Assembly: GCA_905480085.1 (NCBI GenBank)
Contig: CAJQPD010000353.1
Span: forward strand, 1-11,010
Direction: 5' to 3'
DNA length: 11,010 nt
From: an uncultured Acidimicrobiia bacterium
GTDB taxonomy: Bacteria > Actinomycetota > Acidimicrobiia > Spongiisociales > JAENVV01
A program made the position numbers and the translations under genes. This document shows, in pieces, positions 3,835 through 4,485 of this stretch. The notes under the pieces are model-generated. The model saw only the letters and a list, made by a program, of their open reading frames with translations. It had not been told where the DNA came from and made no database searches. How positions within the stretch are numbered: position 1 is the stretch's first letter; the number at the start of each line of letters is the position of its first letter.

Positions 3835-4485
3835 GTGCACAGAACTGTTCGGGCGTTCATCTACCGGTACTTCCGAGACGAAGCCGCTGCCCCGAACGTG
3901 GCGACGATTGCCGATCGGCTCTCTCTTTCGACCTCAGCGGTAGAGGATGCCCTTGAGAGACTCGCCGAAACACATACCATCGTGTTGCAGCCAGGAACAC
4001 ACACGATCTGGATGGCTCATCCGTTCTCAGGTGTCCCTACCGACCACACCGCAACCGTGGCAGACCGGACCTGGTTCGCCAACTGCGGGTGGGACTCGAT
4101 CGCCATCCTGGCGTTGCTCGGAGATGGAACGTTCGCCTCAAAAGATCCGCTCACCGGGGCGACCAACCAGTGGACCGTAACGGACGGCACCATCGTTCCC
4201 GACGGGGTAGTGCACTTCCTGGTGCCTGCCCGACAGTTCTGGGACGACATCGGCTACACCTGAGGCAACATCATGGCCTTCCGGTCGGAAGGCGATGTCG
4301 AACTGTGGGTACGGTCACGAGGAACAGAAGTCGGGGCAATCGTGGATATGCAAACCGTGCTTCAATTGGGCCATGATTGGTATTCAGGGCGGTTCGACCC
4401 AAACTGGGATCGCCCTGACGCCGATGACGTCGTTTCTATGTTTGCCTCGCTCGGCCTAACCGGCCCGTTCTGGTCACTGGGTTAG
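3835..4485 (+). CDS. MerB-like alkylmercury lyase family protein, predicted selenoprotein (Sec143 at TGA 4261-4263)
   Basis: Read as one gene of 216 residues, with the in-frame TGA at 4261-4263 decoded as selenocysteine. Residues about 1-50 look like a small helix-turn-helix-type domain, as at the N-terminus of MerB. The lyase domain follows. In E. coli plasmid MerB the catalytic residues are Cys96, Asp99 and Cys159. Here NCGWD gives Cys84 and Asp87, and the TGA falls at the Cys159 position in FWDDIGYT-U-GNIMAFRSE (MerB: SFC-CHVHFF). After the TGA the same frame keeps family-like sequence (VELWV, VLQLGHDWY, FASLGL) to TAG at 4483-4485. MerB Cys117 is replaced by an acidic or loop residue (SKDPLTG). 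A SECIS-like hairpin follows the TGA directly. MerB cuts carbon-mercury bonds, but whether this protein acts on organomercurials is unknown: no merA, merR or transporter is nearby. The alternative is a nonsense mutation. The GTG start appears leaderless; an in-frame stop at 3817-3819 limits upstream extension. Confidence 0.82.
4261..4263 (+). other. predicted selenocysteine codon (UGA)
   Basis: In-frame TGA at codon 143 of the MerB-like gene, at the family's catalytic second cysteine. Both flanks are in the same frame and both match the family. Decoding would need SelA, SelB, SelD and tRNA-Sec, none of which is in the window. Confidence 0.82.
4264..4298 (+). promoter_or_regulatory. bacterial SECIS-like hairpin
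   Basis: It begins directly after the TGA. The lower stem pairs ACATC (4268-4272) with GATGT (4294-4298). ATG (4273-4275) is unpaired on the 5' side. The upper stem pairs GCCTTCC (4276-4282) with GGAAGGC (4287-4293) perfectly, and the apical loop is GGTC (4283-4286). Nineteen bases separate the TGA from the loop. Known bacterial SECIS elements sit immediately 3' of UGA, carry a G at the start of a small apical loop (GGUC in E. coli fdhF) and have a bulge that includes a U. All of these are present. The hairpin is also coding sequence. Confidence 0.82.

Follow-up and report, generated by a model that had tools for sequence, protein, structure and literature searches.

MerB relatives with predicted selenocysteine

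The closest described relatives of the gene studied here are the organomercurial lyase MerB (PDB 3f0o/3f2f; PF03243), which has a Cys96/Asp99/Cys159 triad, MerB2 (PDB 5c17), and SaoL (NF040728), which is likewise a MerB relative with selenocysteine (Sec). Reviews mention a MerB-like selenoprotein, which was equated with SaoL (motif CU) in 2026 (PMC13188914, PMC9312934), and an "Organic mercuric lyase MerB2" stands in a 2020 list of predicted selenoproteins (PMC7435645). Here, I describe a MerB-like gene with an in-frame TGA codon in a DNA stretch of 11,010 nucleotides (the window; contig CAJQPD010000353.1 of assembly GCA_905480085.1) from an uncultured Acidimicrobiia bacterium. As judged from the sequences, it is almost certain that this TGA is read as Sec. 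The locus has the following features.

3835..4485, + strand: predicted MerB-like selenoprotein gene (GTG start, TAG stop at 4483-4485; 216 amino acids with Sec at 143)
3835..4020, + strand: N-terminal winged-helix-like domain (residues 1-62)
4024..4383, + strand: MerB catalytic domain PF03243 (residues 64-183; 75.6 bits, E 4.5e-21, spanning the TGA)
4084..4086, + strand: Cys84 (TGC), the MerB Cys96 column (TGA in 10 of 78 related loci)
4093..4095, + strand: Asp87 (GAC), the MerB Asp99 column (invariant in the 47-row alignment A2)
4261..4263, + strand: predicted Sec143 (TGA), the MerB Cys159 column (73 TGA and 5 TAG in 78 readable loci)
4276..4293, + strand: hairpin resembling a Sec insertion sequence (SECIS), with a 7-bp stem and a GGUC loop at 4283-4286, inside the AFRSEG codons

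A preliminary description of the locus had claimed a frame interrupted by TGA at codon 143 alone, with family-like sequence on both sides. This holds, as 4261-4263 is the single in-frame TGA and the PF03243 match of the window protein (P0001), which clears the gathering cut-off of 27 bits, crosses it. Taken by segment, the match scores 36.4 bits 5′ of the TGA and 21.4 bits, below the cut-off, 3′ of it. The predicted structure, with Cys modelled in place of Sec, has the MerB fold, and canonical MerB structures superpose on model residues 1-190, the N-terminal region included. The catalytic columns were assigned by aligning the family profile to PDB sequences. Residue 143 aligns with Cys159, the residue directly preceding Ser160 in the C160S mutant 3f2g, and Cys84 and Asp87 align with the Cys and the Asp of the "WCALD" or equivalent motif. 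All three columns of the canonical triad are matched, with Sec replacing Cys159, just as had been proposed for the TGA and for Cys84/Asp87.

The locus differs from MerB in having Sec at the Cys159 column and in lying in a window without mer context. In two genomes (G017 and G026), a stop-free MerB adjoins MerA, whereas the TGA gene lies elsewhere: in G017 it is on the same contig at a distance of about 26 kb, and in G026 it is on other contigs. In MerB2, the Sec column holds Cys and the Asp99 column holds Ser. The SaoL model is matched at E ≤ 0.01 by 41 of the 47 members of alignment A2, while the window protein scores 25.8 bits against the NF040728 cut-off of 140. In addition, the SaoL motif is given as C-U in PMC13188914, while the window protein reads T-U, residue 142 being Thr. 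The "MerB2" of PMC7435645, a MerB-named protein with a predicted Sec, may or may not belong to this clade. A literature search, with subscription papers and supplementary files outside its scope, showed no title on this MerB-like Sec clade among the papers listed. As to whether a Sec-containing member had been described before, a question raised in the preliminary description, MerB-like selenoproteins do appear in reviews (SaoL, "MerB2"). MerB-like selenoproteins have already been predicted, and the clade of the window protein falls short of the cut-off of the SaoL model.

Codons at the Sec column

Database searches found 476 protein homologues, and the following statements rest on 120 among the matches listed. 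In 117 of the 120 (116 found by pattern and P0080), the protein terminates one residue ahead of the Sec codon, and P0026 is cut still earlier. The isolate Geomonas sp. RF6 has a homologue of the same short form, 145 amino acids in length and annotated as "alkylmercury lyase family protein". The MerB-like selenoprotein family is recorded largely as a shorter protein ending at the Sec codon; at least 117 database entries end too early, and probably most of the 476 do. That databases carry this form would suit a true stop at the TGA, with a truncated protein or a decaying gene, but the chance of this is negligible in view of three observations detailed below: dN/dS is similar on both sides of the TGA, further stops are confined to catalytic columns, and the TAG codon has a corresponding tRNA anticodon.

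Scanning reference genomes yielded 90 relatives, and the best 80 of these were retained. The Sec column was readable at 78 of the 80 loci, the exceptions being L085, whose sequence diverges ahead of the column, and L093, which stops short of it. It was found that 73 loci have TGA, five have TAG, and none has Cys. The carriers are labelled as Acidimicrobiia and other Actinomycetota, Chloroflexi, Acidobacteria, Gemmatimonadetes, Deltaproteobacteria/Desulfobacterales, and Marinimicrobia, together with one Betaproteobacterium and one Gammaproteobacterium. Apart from these, the 16,076 codons of the 78 loci include just ten stops, all of them TGA in the Cys96 column, 63 codons upstream (L033, L037, L039, L042, L043, L046-L049, and L079). 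Seven of these ten genes were placed in a tree, where all seven form one clade with 100/100 support. In the ten proteins, both metal ligands would be Sec. Random frame damage in relatives, which the preliminary description had named as evidence against Sec, is absent from the 78 loci read; this column is occupied by TGA, by a matching TAG or, in a few homologues, by Cys.

The ratio of nonsynonymous to synonymous substitution rates (dN/dS) between the window gene and L022 (92% identical) is 0.145 before the TGA and 0.171 after it, and between L023 and L024 it is 0.126 before and 0.109 after. Among ten pairs, the ratio is higher after the TGA in three (window/L022, L059/L062, and L052/L086) and is not computable after the TGA in one. 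One Geodermatophilus pair is weakly constrained on both sides (0.55 and 0.47). Truncation or decay was rejected, as the two sides of the TGA have similar dN/dS and stops are confined to the two catalytic columns over the 16,076 codons.

Could the TGA encode another residue, namely Trp, by a code change or by suppression? Two database proteins, P0019 and P0022, do have Trp at the Sec column, which probably results from gene prediction under genetic code 4. However, among the eight other genes checked in the window, four use TGA as their ordinary stop, and a reassigned code is thus not applicable here and was rejected. The stop-free homologues resolved at the column have Cys rather than Trp, and the carrier genomes have Sec machinery (see below). 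I regard the Trp reading as having next to no probability. Of 396 genomes of the phylum that were surveyed, 24 had a match at an E-value of 1e-20. There were 28 match rows in all: 20 have one TGA, one has both TGA and TAG, one has a lone TAG but stops short of the Sec column, and six are stop-free. The six comprise two Cys forms, two matches ending before the column, and two stop-free matches of 74-80 bits, L228 and L233, that gave no reading there.

Cys at the Sec column is rare, being found in P0122, P0123, the variant P0126, L219, and L220. The genomic Cys homologues L219 and L220, from one genus, have the codon TGC and no longer have the FRSE motif or the GGTC loop; P0122 and P0123, known as protein sequences, retain the FRSE residues. 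In a 54-row tree, which was rooted by midpoint only, the four Cys rows used sit in two places among the Sec rows. This reads as two Sec-to-Cys exchanges. A search with the C-terminal region of the window protein found no homologue. The corresponding search from a distant member found six, three with Cys at the column and three starting just past it.

A hairpin downstream of the TGA

The window gene has a SECIS-like hairpin of the kind expected for a bacterial selenoprotein. The stem starts 12 nucleotides past the TGA, and this offset is fixed in most relatives. The 42-nucleotide segment of the window folds at -17 kcal/mol (z -2.88), and two of 200 shuffles folded equally well. The hairpin was compared among 79 sequences including the window. 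Of 76 sequences, 75 use TCG for the Ser of FRSE, compared with 34% elsewhere in the same genes, and 67 of 72 use CGG for the Arg, compared with 31% elsewhere. Stem pairing is seen in 88.3% of cells, compared with 81.4% in shuffles and 46-68% in slid versions; the covariation score of the stem was reached by none of 500 shuffles and the number of stem pair types by 11 of 500, all these statistics being inflated by kinship among the sequences. The loop is mostly AGTTC or AGGTC in the deltaproteobacterial genes, and L035, L036, L038, and L087 deviate in the loop too. The upstream TGA of the ten double-TGA genes has no GGUC hairpin at the usual offset, and several of these genes fold a stem in a similar place.

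Sec machinery and matching anticodons

Sec machinery was sought in 30 homologue-bearing genomes from the 80 loci, picked for spread; G001-G003 and G032-G034 share coordinates and are apparently the same three assemblies and thus not independent. A tRNASec above the Rfam cut-off is present in 25 of the 30 genomes, SelB above the curated cut-off in 28, and one or both in all 30. The anticodon is TCA in 20 of the 25 tRNASec genes and CTA in five. The five genomes with CTA are exactly the five with TAG at the Sec column (two Geodermatophilus, one Modestobacter, and two Blastococcus), and the twenty TGA genomes carry TCA. ARAGORN calls the CTA genes tRNAPyl, while the tRNASec model gives them 64-67 bits. 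The TAG carriers share ancestry, and the five cases may count as one event. This match of TAG and CTA is an event predicted by Sec decoding, and I see no alternative account of it. UAG-encoded Sec was reportedly described by Mukai et al. in 2016, with Geodermatophilus and Blastococcus named. The five TAG members are accounted for by this known phenomenon. The use of UAG for Sec with a variant tRNASec in some bacteria is also mentioned in PMC8124441 and PMC10778597.

In the bin to which the window belongs, which is 68% complete, SelD is present (388.9 bits; L167, G000 contig C322:958-1887) and reads HGAGUACK with an in-frame TGA of its own, presumably at the active-site Cys. In the same genus, the gene with one TGA is found in four of four genomes, SelB in all three searched (311-335 bits), and tRNASec in three of four (76.3 bits), the fourth having none above the cut-off.

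Proposed function of the MerB-like selenoprotein

It is known that mercury is bound more tightly by selenium than by sulphur. Here, evolution appears to have installed Sec where the organomercurial-lyase fold has a mercury-binding Cys, and in some cases at both of its ligands. Given Sec, organometal lyase chemistry is a fairly probable function. The following mechanism is proposed. The ribosome would read UGA as Sec, guided by the GGUC-loop hairpin, SelB, and tRNASec. In the MerB-like fold, Cys84 and Sec143 would form a pair of soft-metal ligands, and Asp87 would be the acid. The Sec selenolate and the Cys84 thiolate would capture the metal of an organometal, most likely R-Hg+, Asp87 would give a proton to the leaving carbon, and the freed metal ion would be handed to cellular thiols. 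This would take place outside mer operons and mostly in genomes without MerA above the curated cut-off. I infer that the window protein may cleave organomercurials. The preliminary description, which saw a Sec-containing member of the alkylmercury lyase family, is borne out by the PF03243 match, the TGA/TAG column, and the matching tRNASec anticodons. Taken as a whole, a MerB-superfamily selenoprotein acting as an organometal lyase outside mer operons is the best explanation and a reasonably probable one.

Several results weigh against this explanation. The window protein misses the canonical MerB models of NCBIfam (NF009710, 28.8/193 bits; NF033555, 21.1/200 bits). Among the 79 hairpin sequences, 13 have no GGTC at the loop offset or no stem closing on it. 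The four stem pairs changed on both sides are less striking than the other statistics, being matched by 37 of 500 shuffles, and an Rfam search at the hairpin gave no match. The preliminary description had called for a search of the source genome for Sec machinery. This was successful for SelD, while SelA, SelB, and tRNASec were not found in the 68%-complete bin. The best tRNASec candidate there (43.0 bits) was rejected as a tRNASer with anticodon gct, and the best SelB match (94 bits) is far under the cut-off of 242. No mer family was found among the eight window neighbours, as the preliminary description had already noted for the vicinity, and a crude comparison of open reading frames at 81 loci found no partner gene common across phyla. 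MerA above the curated cut-off occurs in only five of 32 genomes, and none was found in the incomplete bin of the window. A mercury substrate is thus without support from the gene context.

As to the neighbourhoods themselves, links are limited to synteny within the same genus or clade. The two largest clusters consist of frames lying over the target (32 of 32 members) or opposing it (28 of 29), and the next cluster, with nine loci, is a mixture of ABC ATPases of different kinds, as named by eye.

The absence of mer context, together with the pairing of the Cys96 and Cys159 columns, both of which are TGA in ten loci, would also suit a MerB-fold selenoprotein with redox chemistry. Cys84 and Sec143 would then form a selenenylsulfide, and the protein would be a reductase, a peroxidase, or a redox switch and not a lyase. 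According to PMC9312934, redox proteins are believed to make up most families of prokaryotic selenoproteins. On the other hand, the 47-row alignment shows no variation at the Asp that is the acid in MerB, and a simple dithiol-type switch would have no need of this residue; the MerB fold is also retained in the predicted structure. I consider the redox alternative unlikely, while giving it some weight. The winged helix-turn-helix-like N-terminus suggests another possibility, a sensor or scavenger of metals or organometals that acts as a regulator or merely binds Hg(II) or a similar ion tightly. A distant double-TGA relative, which continues in frame into class III cyclase-like sequence (by eye), also speaks for a sensor. 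However, canonical MerB shares the N-terminal region (model residues 1-190), and the domain does not therefore imply DNA binding; the acid residue is conserved as well. A sensor or scavenger seems improbable.

Returning to the organometal lyase, its non-mer setting in mostly MerA-less genomes suggests trace organomercury or another soft organometal(loid) as a possible natural substrate. A broader proposal is tentative and rather doubtful: Se-dependent organometal lyases would occur across phyla outside mer operons, with a ligand that is nearly always Sec, Sec/Sec in one clade, and UAG-coded in Geodermatophilaceae, and their main substrate would be another soft organometal(loid) and not the methylmercury of the mer pathway. 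If active, the protein would allow the benefit of Sec to metal chemistry, as opposed to redox chemistry, to be tested in a natural case. Bacteria that have no mer operons would then probably be able to degrade organometals, and studies of Sec recoding would gain a matched UGA/UAG pair.

A second MerB-like family

By eye, a further MerB-like family was recognised that is distant from the first and has TGA at the Cys159 column (L198, L200, L191/L138, L145, and L146). L198 belongs to G031, of the same genus as the window, L200 to G017, and L191/L138 to G067. L198 and L200 have TGA at the Cys96 column too, and Glu at the Asp99 column. L198 has the same GGTC hairpin at the same offset, and its frame continues stop-free into a sequence resembling class III nucleotide cyclases (named by eye). 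In G067, about 600 bases separate the second-family gene L138 from the first-family gene, and the two are on opposite strands.
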